A stretch of DNA of 36,235 bases, taken from assembly GCA_938028665.1 (NCBI GenBank), contig CALIMB010000001.1, positions 1-36,235 of the forward strand, in the 5' to 3' direction. Origin of the DNA: an uncultured Thermomicrobium sp. (GTDB lineage: Bacteria > Chloroflexota > Chloroflexia > Thermomicrobiales > Thermomicrobiaceae). Made by a program: the position numbers and the translations under genes. Below the pieces are notes generated by a model. That model was not told the origin of the DNA. It did no database searches and saw nothing but the letters and a program-made list of their open reading frames with translations. Shown here one piece after another: positions 527-6,396 of the stretch (positions are counted from its first letter, which is position 1; the number at the start of each line of letters is the position of its first letter).

Positions 527-555
527 TTGACGCAGGGCAGCGGGTGCGCTATGCT
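527..555 (+). promoter_or_regulatory. Sigma70-like promoter of the pyr operon
   Basis: TTGACG at 527-532 and TATGCT at 550-555 are separated by exactly 17 bp. This matches the sigma70 consensus well (5 of 6 at -35, 4 of 6 at -10). A transcript starting near 561-563 would have a leader of about 140 nt before pyrC, with an intrinsic terminator inside it. It is the clearest promoter in the window. Confidence 0.6.
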
Positions 556-565
556 TGTGCTTTGA

Positions 566-687
566 GTGTCGGTAGTAGAGCGTACGGACGCAACCAGGTG
601 AGGCGTGCACAGCAGCGGTAGTCCACAACCTCCGATACGGCAGATGAGCGGGCCTCTGGATTCAGCCCGAATCCAGAGGCCTTTTTT
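566..687 (+). terminator. pyr leader with intrinsic terminator: candidate attenuator
   Basis: The leader can fold a 7-bp stem, 566-572 with 632-638 (one G-U pair), closing a region with smaller hairpins such as gcgt/acgc near 580-590. Downstream, 13-base arms at 651-663 and 669-681 form a perfect stem with a 5-base loop, followed by TTTTTT at 682-687: a textbook intrinsic terminator. It ends 16 bases before the pyrC start and after the promoter at 527-555, so it must be conditional for the operon to be expressed. Bases 593-604 (ccagg and aggc parts) could compete with the 5' arm as an antiterminator. No clear PyrR-binding consensus is visible, so the sensor (UMP/PyrR, UTP or another ligand) is unknown. 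Confidence 0.6.
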
Positions 688-703
688 ATGGGCTCCTGCA
701 CTA

Positions 704-2095
704 GTGCTCCGTGGCGGTCGTGTCATTGACCCTACCCAAGGGATGGATGCGCCGGCGGATCTCGTTATCCGTGATGGGAAGGTTGTCGCCGTTGGCCCCT
801 GTCTTCCGCTCCCGGATGATGCACGTGTGGTGGAGGTGCAAGGGCTGGTTGTTGCTCCGGCCTTTGTTGACGTGCACGTGCACTTACGTGATCCAGGCTT
901 CCCGGAGAAGGAGACACTGCAGAGCGGCGCTGCAGCAGCCGCCGCCGGTGGCTTTGCCACGATATGCTGCATGCCCAATACCCAGCCGCCGCTCGATACA
1001 CCGGAACGTGTGCGCGACATCGTTGAGCGGGCCCGGGGGTTGCCAGTACGCGTCTTTCCGATCGGCGCAATTTCGCGCGGTCGCCGTGGTGAAGAGCTGG
1101 CCGACTTGGTGGGGATGGCTGAAGCAGGCGCAGTCGGTTTTTCCGACGACGGTGACAGCACCCGCAGTGCACGTGTGTTGCGTGCAGCACTCGAGACCAG
1201 CCGTCTGCTGGGTCGGCCAATCATGGTGCACTGCGAAGAGTGGACGCTGGCAGCGGGGGGTGTGGTCCACGAGGGACCGGTAGCGCGCCGACTTGGCCTC
1301 CCTGGAGTCCCGGCGGCAGCGGAGGAGATCGTGTTGCTGCGCGACCTGGAACTGGCACGCGTGACTGGCGGCTGGTTGCATGTTTTGCATCTGACGACAG
1401 CGCGGGGGCTCGCCTTCGTGCGCCGGGCAAAACGTGACGGTGTGCGGGTGACCGTCGAAGTGACGCCGCATCATCTTTTACTGACTGATGAGTGGGTGGC
1501 TGGGGTGCGGCGGTTTGCGGGGGAGGAGGAAGTGCAACCGCCGGGGCCGTGTCCCGATCCCAACGCGAAGGTGAATCCGCCTTTGCGGCCAGAGGAGGAC
1601 GTGTTGGCCTTACGGGCCGGCCTACGGGACGGCACGATCGATCTGATTGCTACCGATCATGCTCCACACCACGAGCAGGATAAGCCCAGCGATCTCCGTC
1701 GGGCGGCATTCGGTATGGTCGGGCTCGAGTTGGCACTTCCGCTCTTGTTGCGCCTTGTCCACGCTGGATCCCTGACGCTACGGGAACTCATCGAGTTCCT
1801 TTCTTGCCAGCCAGCACGGGTATTGGGTCTGCCCGGAGGAACGCTCAGGCCGGGTTCCCCGGCCGATGTCGTAGTGTTCGATCCCGCGGTCCCCTGGCAG
1901 ATCACCCGCGAGACGTTACGCTCGCGCAGCGCCAACACGCCGCTCTTGGGCCTCACGCTGCACGGGCGCGTACTCCTGACCATCGTCGAAGGGAAGGTAG
2001 TCTATGGTGATACACACTTCACGGACCGGTGCACTGGTCTTGGAGGACGGCCGGATCTTTCCGGGTACCCCATTCGGGGCGCACCGCAACGCTGA
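704..2095 (+). CDS. pyrC: Dihydroorotase
   Basis: Class I zinc dihydroorotase of about 463 residues, which cyclises N-carbamoyl-aspartate to dihydroorotate in cytosolic pyrimidine synthesis. Metal-binding HxH is at residues 58 and 60 (DVHVHLRDPG). FSDDG carries the Asp found where urease-like relatives have a carboxylated Lys, VTPHHLL and HLTTARG follow, and IATDHAPHH supplies the late Asp/His. GTG at 704 is the only in-frame start after the leader terminator that keeps the beta strand VLRGGRVIDP; it lacks a visible Shine-Dalgarno. A longer frame from 605 would translate the terminator and is rejected. The C-terminus runs about 30 residues past the usual end (after GKVVYG) and overlaps carA by 92 bp. 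It heads the operon pyrC-carA-carB-cax-pyrE. Confidence 0.93.
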   Translation: MLRGGRVIDPTQGMDAPADLVIRDGKVVAVGPCLPLPDDARVVEVQGLVVAPAFVDVHVHLRDPGFPEKETLQSGAAAAAAGGFATICCMPNTQPPLDTPERVRDIVERARGLPVRVFPIGAISRGRRGEELADLVGMAEAGAVGFSDDGDSTRSARVLRAALETSRLLGRPIMVHCEEWTLAAGGVVHEGPVARRLGLPGVPAAAEEIVLLRDLELARVTGGWLHVLHLTTARGLAFVRRAKRDGVRVTVEVTPHHLLLTDEWVAGVRRFAGEEEVQPPGPCPDPNAKVNPPLRPEEDVLALRAGLRDGTIDLIATDHAPHHEQDKPSDLRRAAFGMVGLELALPLLLRLVHAGSLTLRELIEFLSCQPARVLGLPGGTLRPGSPADVVVFDPAVPWQITRETLRSRSANTPLLGLTLHGRVLLTIVEGKVVYGDTHFTDRCTGLGGRPDLSGYPIRGAPQR

Positions 2096-3155
2096 GGGCG
2101 AAGCCGTCTTCACCACAGTTATGACCGGTTATCAAGAGGTGGTCACAGACCCCTCTTTTTATGGGCAGATTGTCTGCATGACCTACCCACTGATTGGTAA
2201 TTATGGCATCTGTGCCGAGGACGACCAGTCGCGCCGACCCTGGGTGGCGGGACTGGTGGTGCGTGAGTACTGTGCTCGGCCAAGTCATTGGCGTGCCCAA
2301 GGTACGCTGGGCGAGTACCTGGAGCGCTGGGGAATCCCGGGGCTGACGGGAGTCGATACCCGGGCACTTACCCGGCACCTCCGCCTGCACGGGACCATGC
2401 GTGCCGTGTTGGTGAGCGACCGCCGTGGCCTCACGGACGAAGAGCTCCGTGAGATGGCACGCCGTGCCTGGACACCGGACACAGAAGACGTTGTTCCTGC
2501 GGTCCGGGGCGAGCGTGCGACCTTCGGCCCGGTGGATGCGCCGCATGTTGTGGTGATTGACTGCGGGGTGAAGCACAACATCCTTGTCTCGCTCCGCCAG
2601 CGTGGGGTGCGCCTGACGGTGCTGCCCTATGGGGTGCAGGCGGCCGAGGTACTCGCCCTCGATCCGGATGGGGTGGTTGTTTCCCCGGGACCCGGCGATC
2701 CAGTACAGGCGCGCCGGGCAGTGGAAACGGTACGGGAGCTTGCGTACTCTGGCGTGCCGTTCTTCGGTATCTGCTTGGGCCACCAGCTTCTGGCGCTCGC
2801 AGCTGGTGCCCAGACGACGAAGCTTGCCTTCGGACACCGCGGGGGAAACCATCCGGTGAAAGATCTTCTCACTGGACGGGTTCGCATCACGTCACAGAAT
2901 CACGGCTACTGCGTGGAAGCAGCCAGCGTGCCGACCGAGCAGGGCTGGCTCGTCTGGATGGTGAATGTCAACGACGGGACGGTGGAAGGCCTCCGGCATC
3001 AGGAGTTGCCAGTGCTCAGCGTCCAGTTCCACCCGGAGGGAGCACCCGGGCCGCAAGATAGTCAGGACCTCTTCGATATCTTCTTGAAACTCGTGCGGCA
3101 GCGCTGGCAGGCAAGTATGACGCAGGCAGCACTCCTTGCTGGAGAGGGGGTGTGA
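2004..3155 (+). CDS. carA: Carbamoyl-phosphate synthase small (glutaminase) subunit
   Basis: 383 residues, the normal length. It hydrolyses glutamine and channels ammonia to CarB. The N-terminal CarA domain spans about residues 8-150 and a class I glutamine amidotransferase domain about 180-365. The nucleophile is Cys257 (FGICLGHQ), with His343 and Glu345 (QFHPEG) completing the triad; VVSPGPGDP and FGHRGGNHP are typical of the family. ATG at 2004 has a good purine-rich site (gaagggaaggt) just upstream although it lies 92 bp inside pyrC; GTG at 2007 is the alternative. It ends 1 bp before carB. Confidence 0.95.
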
Positions 3156-3156
3156 G

Positions 3157-6100
3157 ATGGCTCGTGCACCAGTGGTCTCCAGTGTCCTTGTCATCGGCTC
3201 GGGTCCGATCGTCATCGGCCAAGCTGCCGAGTTTGACTATTCCGGGAGCCAGGCACTTCGGGCGCTGCGCGAGGAAGGAGTCCGCACCATCATCGTTAAT
3301 TCCAACCCAGCGACCATTATGACTGACGAGGATATGGCCGATGCCGTCTACATCGAGCCTCTGACGGTGGAAGTGCTTGAGTACATCATCGCCCGCGAGC
3401 GTCCAGAGGGACTCTTGGCAACACTCGGTGGCCAGACCGGATTGAACCTCGCTGTGGCGCTGGCCGAAGCGGGGGTGCTTGATCGGTACGGTGTGCGGCT
3501 CCTTGGGACGCCGCTCGAGGCGATCCGCAAGGCGGAGGACCGGCAACTTTTCAAGGAGCTTCTGCATGAGATCGGAGAGCCAGTGCTGGAAAGTGTGACG
3601 GCCTACAGTGTGGAAGAGGCACTGCGCTTTGCCGAGGAAGCGTCACTCCCGCTCATCGTACGCCCAGCTTTCACGCTCGGTGGGACGGGCGGCGGGATTG
3701 CTTTCACGCGGGAGGAACTGATTACCCTGGTGCAACGTGGCCTTGCTGCCAGTCCAATTGGCCAGGTGCTTGTCGAGCGGAGTCTTCTGGGGTGGAAAGA
3801 GATCGAGTATGAGGTGATGCGGGATGGCAATGATACCTGTATCACAGTCTGCAACATGGAAAATCTTGATCCGATGGGTGTCCATACTGGAGATAGCATC
3901 GTAGTCGCCCCCTCGCAGACGCTCAGTGACCGCGACTATCAGATGTTGCGCAGTGCAGCCCTCAAGATCATTCGGGCCCTAGGCATTATTGGTGGATGCA
4001 ATATTCAGTTCGCACTCGATCCTCACTCCGATCGGTACTATGTCATCGAGGTCAATCCTCGGGTCAGTCGCAGTTCGGCCCTGGCTTCGAAAGCCACCGG
4101 TTATCCGATTGCGCGGATTGCGGCTAAGCTGGCCATTGGACATACCCTTGACGAGTTGCCCAATCCGGTGACCGGAAAGACTATGGCCTCGTTTGAGCCG
4201 GCGCTCGATTACTGTGTGGTCAAGATTCCGCGCTGGCCCTTTGACAAATTCGCCCACGGTGATCGGACGCTTGGCTCGCAGATGAAGGCAACTGGTGAAG
4301 TGATGGCAATTGACCGTTGCTTTGAAGCAGCGTTGCAGAAGGCAGTGCGCGGGCTTGATTCCGATCAGGCTGACCTCCTCTGGGAGGATCCAACCTGGCA
4401 GGACGAGGAGGCACTGAAACACGCGCTGCGGGTGCCGACCGATCTGCGGCTCTGGGCGGTGGCTGCGGCGGTTCGTCGCGGCTGGGACCCGGATGAGATC
4501 AGTACTCTTTGCGGAATCGATCCCTGGTTTGTGCGGGCAATCCAGCGCATTGTCACCTGGGAAGGGCTCCTGGCTCGCACTGAACTCACGCCAGAGCTCC
4601 TGTGGGAGGCCAAGCGGCTTGGGTTCAGCGATCGTACAATCGCGACTCTCCGGGGTACGACGGAACGGGCGGTGCGGCAGCTCCGCCGGACCTGGGGCAT
4701 TCTCCCGGTTCACAAGCTGGTTGATACCTGCGCTGCCGAGTTTGCTGCCGAAACGCCGTATTTCTACGCGACGTACGAGGACGAGGACGAGGCGCCACTG
4801 CTTGATCCCCCGAAAGTAGCAGTCATCGGAGCCGGACCGATCCGGATCGGTCAGGGAATTGAATTTGACTACTGCAGTGTCAAGGCTGCCCAGGCACTGC
4901 ACCATGCGGGTGTCGCCGCCATCATGCTCAACAACAACCCAGAAACGGTCTCCACCGATTTTGACGCATCCGACCGACTCTATGTTGTGCCGCTTGATGC
5001 TGAGTCGGTACTTGATGTACTGCTCCATGAGGCAGGAGGGGATCCTGAAGCCGTTCCACCGGTCATCGTGCAATTTGGCGGTCAGACGGCGATCAACCTC
5101 GCAGGAGAGCTTGCCGTTTCCGGGGTTCCGATCCTTGGCACCGATCAGGAGGCGATCGATATCGCGGAAGACCGGAGACGGTTCGAACAGTTCCTGCGTC
5201 AGTTAGGCATCCCACAGCCACCGGGTGCCGGTGTACGAAGCCTTGAGGAAGCACTCGCAGTGGCCGAGCGCGTCGGATATCCTGTCCTCGTTCGGCCCTC
5301 CTATGTGCTCGGTGGACGAGCAATGGAGGTTGTGTACCGCCGTGAGCACCTGGAGCGCTATCTGGAGCTGGCCGGTGCCTTTGCCAGCGGCCGTCCAGTG
5401 CTCATCGATAAGTATTTGGATGGAGTTGAGCTTGAAGTCGACGCGATTACCGATGGACGTGAAGTGCTGATTCCTGGCATCATGCAGCACATTGAGCGTG
5501 CAGGAGTGCATTCCGGCGATAGCTTTGCTGTCTACCCAGCTGTTGAGCTCCCACACGAGTATGTCCAGACGCTCGTGCACTATACGACGGAGATCGCGCT
5601 TGCGCTCGGCGCGCGTGGACTCCTGAATATCCAGTTCGTGTTGCACGGGGGGACCATCTACGTTCTGGAAGTCAATCCGCGGGCCTCGCGGACGGTCCCC
5701 TTCTTGAGCAAGGTGACTGGTGTCCCGATGGTCGAGGTGGCGACGCGGGTTCTGCTCGGCCAGACGCTCGCCGAGCAGGGGTATAACGGTGGACTCTGGC
5801 CACGCCAGCCACTGGTAGCGGTGAAGGCGCCGGTCTTCTCAATGGCCAAGTTGCACGGTGTGGACGTGCAACTTGGACCAGAGATGAAGTCGACTGGTGA
5901 AGCGCTGGGAATTGATCGCACGTTCGAGGCGGCGCTGGCCAAGGCGTTCCTGGCCGCGGGACTGGTGATCCCGCGCGGGGCTCCGGTGCTCCTTAGCCTT
6001 GCGGATGAGGACAAGCCAGCTGGAGTCGAGCTTGCACGAGCCTTGGCCGAGCTTGGTTACCCGATCGTTGCGACTGAGGGGACGGCAGCCTATCTTCGCT

Positions 6101-6396
6101 CGCGTGGCGTACCCGTTGAACTGGTGGTGCACCATATCGGTCAAGGACATCCGAATGTTCTTGAAGTGATCCTTGATCGGACAGTACGCGGTGTGATCAA
6201 TACACCGGGGCGGGATGAGGGTACGATCCAAGACGGTTTCCTGATCCGGCGCGCGGCAGTGGAGCGTGGAATGCCTTGTCTCACCTCACTCGATACGGCG
6301 CAGGCATTAGTGCGGGCATTGCTCGGTTGTACGACGTACTCGGTGCAGCCATTGCCAGCATACCGGACTCGGGAAACCGTACCGGCTTTCGTTTGA
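3157..6396 (+). CDS. carB: Carbamoyl-phosphate synthase large subunit
   Basis: 1,079 residues, as expected for CarB. It makes carbamoyl phosphate from bicarbonate, ammonia and two ATP, for pyrimidines and arginine. Two homologous ATP-grasp halves are visible: the first begins [20 protein letters not shown] and contains [18 protein letters not shown] and [18 protein letters not shown]; the second begins [18 protein letters not shown] and contains [12 protein letters not shown] and [18 protein letters not shown]. The C-terminal MGS-like allosteric domain (about 940-1070; [17 protein letters not shown]) is present. ATG at 3157 follows ggagaggggg and lies 1 bp after carA. Seven more in-frame codons exist upstream but overlap carA and lack a better site. 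Confidence 0.96.

Follow-up and report, generated by a model that had tools for sequence, protein, structure and literature searches.

The pyrC-carA-carB genes of a heat-loving, Thermomicrobium-like bacterium appear to be controlled by a translation-coupled transcription attenuator, working like that of pyrBI/pyrL in Escherichia coli but made intragenic through fusion of the leader to pyrC. From comparisons of sequence we put the probability of this reading at roughly 70%. Antitermination would probably fall to a translating ribosome and not to an aptamer fold, and we infer both the coupling of ribosome to polymerase and control by pyrimidine supply. A first-pass annotation of the same DNA had suggested attenuation by an RNA sensor. 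The attenuator-type terminator in that suggestion stands while the sensor falls, the leader having no covariation and showing instead a conserved reading frame through the terminator, together with a short conserved box.

The locus lies on contig G000:C1, the whole of which (36,235 bases) is called the window here; the features below are given on its + strand. Its PyrC is 89-90% identical to those of Thermomicrobium sp. CFH 73360 and Bacterium HR28, the nearest of the named relatives. The pyrC reading frame (605-2095) has 496 codons, and it is only from residue 29-34 on that its product can be aligned to known dihydroorotases. Its end is overlapped by carA, for the small subunit of carbamoyl phosphate synthase (2004-3155; NF009475, TIGR01368), and carB encodes the large subunit (3136-6396; NF003671, TIGR01369). 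Upstream of the pyrC promoter, positions 1-520, where the contig ends, are by eye unlike the DNA of the close relatives L004 and L005, where an ORF judged by eye to be Maf-like lies upstream. Near the contig start a perfect inverted repeat of 16 bp spans 146-179 (CCCAAGGAGGAGCCCA / TGGGCTCCTCCTTGGG); its loop is 2 nt long and it lacks a T-run.

Promoter and terminator ahead of the PyrC homology

A promoter of the sigma-70 type is seen at 527-555, comprising TTGACG (527-532), a 17-nt spacer and TATGCT (550-555). Since a 5-kb scan for promoters of this type found one against 0.9 expected by chance, conservation was used as the evidence instead. The search with PyrC took in 61 genomes of the order Thermomicrobiales, with sequence ahead of pyrC being read wherever it was available. 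A T-run before pyrC was found in 47 of the 61, nearly always preceded by a hairpin. In 39 of these 47 genomes (the window included) TTGAC-like and TATACT-like hexamers with a spacer of 17-18 nt lie 104-176 nt upstream of the point where the T-run ends, while the search found no promoter in the other eight. The good promoter noted in the first-pass annotation is thus present, and its layout is kept across the order.

The intrinsic terminator at 651-687 has a stem of 13-14 bp, a 5-nt loop and a run of six T. In the window the stem has 14 pairs, eight of them G-C, and is followed by TTTTTT at 682-687; the region 562-690 folds with a z-score of -3.5 against shuffles. Among 21 aligned terminators 89% of cells are paired and changes on both sides are seen in 8 of 13 pairs, with 36 cells of compensatory change compared with 15.3 in shuffles. 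When the structure was slid along the alignment, each shifted version scored worse. The marks of an intrinsic terminator, namely a GC-rich hairpin, a T-run and compensatory changes, are thus all found at 651-687, so that the earlier claim of a terminator ahead of the PyrC homology is borne out. The conserved promoter and the covarying terminator together argue from sequence that the promoter-leader-terminator unit before pyrC is under selection.

Start codon of pyrC and the leader reading frame

The terminator had previously been placed so as to end 16 bases before the start codon of pyrC. This proves to be wrong, the supported start, GTG605, lying upstream of the terminator. GTG605 is preceded, after a gap of 3 nt that is normal for a Shine-Dalgarno core, by AGGTGA at 596-601, and GGTGA or a close form is seen in five of the six genus members. 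The AGGTGA sequence includes an in-frame stop, TGA 599-601, and from there the pyrC frame runs without interruption through the terminator. The leader coding segment thus read (605-703; MHSSGSPQPPIRQMSGPLDSARIQRPFLWAPAL) has a GTG start and 33 codons, is fused to pyrC and would give the first 33 residues of PyrC, including the stretch around GPLDSARIQRPFLW; residues 16-26 would be encoded by the terminator hairpin itself. This N-terminal extension varies in length between genera with its frame kept. Its residues are poorly conserved outside the hairpin, and some relatives have only a weak Shine-Dalgarno match, or none, at their start codons.

The alternative is that the terminator is fixed, or is controlled by a protein, and that pyrC starts after it at GTG704 or a CTG, the upstream open frame being incidental in GC-rich DNA. 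It can point to GTG704 in the window, to a GTG near the same site in G001 and G015, and to the GGAGG or AGGAG which precedes ATC CTG in genus g2. Stops are moreover rare in such DNA, and 25-51% of shuffling trials retained an open frame and a start. However, in eight of the 13 Thermomicrobiaceae genomes with the fused arrangement (G002, G003, G005, G006, G007, G009, G013 and G016) the stretch from the T-run to the conserved L-x-R-G-G core contains no ATG, GTG or TTG. In close relatives codon 704 reads CTG and lacks a Shine-Dalgarno sequence, and in genus g1 none stands ahead of the CTG. All 13 fused-type genomes have an open frame whose start is 20-33 codons from the T-run, against 4.8 expected from shuffles; neither of the other two frames has this in any of the 13. 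The start codon also agrees between genera, as does its gap to the upstream box GTACGNAC (see below); in G009 the codon homologous to GTG605 is ATG. We consider a start after the terminator unlikely. Judging from these comparisons, GTG605 is most likely the start of pyrC, GTG704 is not a conserved start, and the terminator most likely lies within the pyrC coding sequence. Fusion of the leader to pyrC has good support from the alignments in genera g1, g3 and g4. In g2 (G007, G012 and G015) pyrC may instead begin at a CTG downstream of the terminator, since G007 and G012 contain, besides the fused frame, one in +1 with a TGA overlapping a CTG (CTGA).

In 29 of the 34 other genomes for which enough DNA was at hand the leader ORF is separate, being in the +1 frame relative to pyrC, crossing the T-run and having a stop which overlaps the pyrC start. 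The overlaps are mostly of the form NTGA (ATGA, GTGA or TTGA) and sometimes TGATG. Among the five exceptions (G027, G040, G041, G045 and G060), all but G060 have a leader in the third frame that ends shortly after the pyrC start. The separate peptides are mostly of 29-45 residues, and in most cases 20-29 codons separate their start from the T-run. In 27 of the 34 genomes of separate type a start at 20-33 codons from the T-run is followed by a frame open through it, against 11.2 expected from dinucleotide shuffles of the promoter-to-hairpin DNA only; the corresponding counts for the other two frames are 5/34 and 6/34. The tail values of the shuffle tests, 7e-9 and 2e-6, are too optimistic, since the genomes are related and statistics of independent trials overstate the significance. 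The leader is also separate in g5, a genus of the same family as g1-g4. Transcriptional slippage on the T-run as a means of shifting frame was dropped because in some relatives (G020, G022, G023 and G046) frame 0 meets stop codons after the T-run and ahead of the start of pyrC. At seven Chloroflexota loci (L006-L010, L035 and L048) no terminator and leader ORF of this kind was found by eye; several of these seem to have pyrB directly upstream.

Sensors, PyrR and a conserved box

According to the first-pass annotation the leader was folded and might be an RNA sensor of a different kind, considered here as one that binds a metabolite or a protein. Each genus member does have a low-energy fold, and the box and start region could pair as GUACG/CGUGC within the genus. 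Once the terminator is left out, however, the leader (562-649) folds no better than its shuffles, with a z-score of +0.64 and 144 of 200 shuffles at least equally stable. For the supposed 7-bp closing stem (566-572/632-638) pairing survives in 63% of cells among the six genus members, no more than in shuffles, and there are no compensatory double changes in those genomes; as it is not conserved it was dropped. The GUACG/CGUGC hairpin across the start region was dropped as well, being invariant in the genus and hence uninformative. The leader matches no Rfam family at the gathering score, with nothing credible below it, no covarying aptamer was found among the relatives upstream of the terminator, and folding g1-g4 to a consensus yields nothing besides the terminator. 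Further copies of the leader were sought elsewhere in the genome and none was found. The leader folds like its shuffles and lacks covariation, the latter being the very outcome which the first-pass annotation had named as telling against a sensor, and we regard a sensor in the leader RNA as very unlikely. Less probable still, to the point of being negligible, is PyrR-dependent attenuation of the Bacillus type. Some relatives carry pyrR (11 of the 61 genomes), and both arrangements have a terminator ahead of pyrimidine genes. Nevertheless, the PyrR binding loop (RF00515) has no match in the window or the genome, no antiterminator was found, and the best hit to pyrR in this genome, 99.3% complete, scores 32 bits against a cut-off of 138. 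Nor does any genome of the genus that was searched have a pyrR over the cut-off, which was exceeded in 6 of 14 named control genomes, and the leader layout is identical in genomes with and without the gene. The earlier remark that no PyrR site is visible was therefore correct. On this genomic evidence PyrR is not the regulator of pyrC here, and PyrR attenuation is largely refuted for this genome, barring a pyrR in the missing part of the assembly. Within the order pyrR is patchy, being found in genera g3, g4 and g5 and in G025, G039 and G060. Two candidate PyrR sites were discarded: copies of CCNGNGAGG, whose count in the window is at chance level with none in the leader, and a degenerate match near 592-604 (AACCAGGTGAGGC), which is the Shine-Dalgarno and start region and has a loop one base too long, pyrR itself being absent.

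A more plausible alternative, and one compatible with the translation-coupled attenuator, is that the GTACGRACG box, which is near the pyrC promoter and also upstream of the pyrB promoter, is bound by a protein, leaving terminator and leader ORF secondary. The box at 580-591 (GCGTACGGACGC) may be an operator in the DNA or an element of translation initiation. Its gap to the leader start codon is 14-19 nt, with GTACGRACG 15 nt ahead of the start, and GTACGNAC is found at a matching gap to the start in all 13 genomes of g1-g4 and in G021, G029 and G058. GCGTACGRACG has only four occurrences in the genome, of which one falls within the pyrC leader and another lies upstream of pyrB, and related boxes lie ahead of the pyrB promoter in g1, g3 and g4. 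The pyrB copy is upstream of the -35 box and outside the expected transcript, which points to DNA rather than RNA and makes a DNA operator the simplest reading. On the other hand, the motif was chosen after being seen and is not enriched in this genome (four copies against seven for the reversed control), its spacing from the pyrC -10 box is variable, at roughly 8-28 nt, no box was found before pyrB in g2, g5 or the other families read, and a conserved ORF across the terminator is left unexplained. Control through the box is accordingly a tentative alternative, and the box as a candidate DNA operator is a lead rather than a result. The two remaining GCGTACGRACG copies, at G000:C5:938 (L170) and G000:C57:16838 (L182), are beside promoter-like sequence, and one of them precedes an ORF that by eye is integrase-like. 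Past the -10 box of pyrB, a stretch like TATGGGTTCCTCCGNACAGGCAACCTCC is conserved in the genus (L146, L148 and L150-L153) and partly shared (GGGTTCC) with G009 and G016; it may be a separate leader.

Proposed translation-coupled attenuation compared with pyrBI

In the attenuation proposed here, RNA polymerase would start near 562 and a ribosome would load at AGGTGA/GTG605, translating toward the terminator 15 codons on. A ribosome close behind the polymerase would cover the 5' arm of the hairpin (651-663), so that no terminator forms and the operon is transcribed. Were the ribosome to lag, an RNA of about 125 nt having no in-frame stop codon would be released. Termination at 687 would leave the start codon without an in-frame stop, so that ribosomes would need rescue. 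Stopless RNAs require tmRNA, the gene for which is present in the genome. Over most of the order the leader ORF is separate, with its stop overlapping the pyrC start codon; in Thermomicrobium, as in two or more related genera, its fusion to pyrC would place the terminator inside the enzyme gene.

In pyrBI a U-rich pause region precedes the terminator hairpin, and the E. coli leader has such a stretch, TTTTTCTTCCCGTTG, before its hairpin. A tract of this kind was looked for in the window leader and not found; the T content of the 60 nt before the hairpin is 12% in the window and 5-33% in relatives. The UTP-sensing step of pyrBI is therefore not evident, and the pyrC attenuator, although it probably works like pyrBI by analogy, is not assigned to the UTP-sensing pyrBI class for want of this feature. 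We can suggest, as a possibility well short of even odds, that an attenuator within the enzyme it controls has a trigger other than UTP-dependent pausing, possibly a box-binding protein that alters transcription or ribosome loading at GTG605.

The resemblance to pyrBI/pyrL is otherwise extensive. A ribosome near the polymerase suppresses the terminators that are reached, and the pyrBI terminator is inside the leader gene (PMC4824070, PMC5021804). Used as a control, E. coli pyrL showed a promoter, 44 codons, a terminator within the leader and a stop 3 nt before pyrB. In both systems a pyrimidine operon has a promoter and a short leader ORF spanning an intrinsic terminator, there is no dedicated regulatory protein, and, as seen here in the relatives, the leader stops at the first structural gene (PMC5021804). 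The attenuated RNA of pyrL likewise has no in-frame stop. There are also differences. The first gene here is pyrC, and the phylum is another one; the distance from leader start to T-run is mostly 20-29 codons rather than 36; the stop overlaps the start codon in relatives; and a separate leader peptide, seen in 29 of the 34 relatives, is replaced in the window, as throughout the genus Thermomicrobium, by the fused form. Leader genes with adjacent stop and start and ribosome reinitiation (PMC4833913) are similar in having a short leader whose stop meets the next start, but here the leader crosses a terminator and, in Thermomicrobium, is fused.

A search of the open literature, with subscription papers mostly outside it, found no report of such an attenuator in this group. 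Besides correcting the start codon of PyrC, the analysis suggests a counterpart, in Chloroflexota genomes lacking PyrR, to the ribosome-coupled pyrimidine control that is best known from enterics, with graded states, from a separate leader with stop-start overlap to a fused one, in living relatives. The pyrC leader would be a clean place to study what sets the distance between ribosome and polymerase where there is no U-rich pause tract, and also how the cell deals with attenuated RNAs lacking a stop codon.
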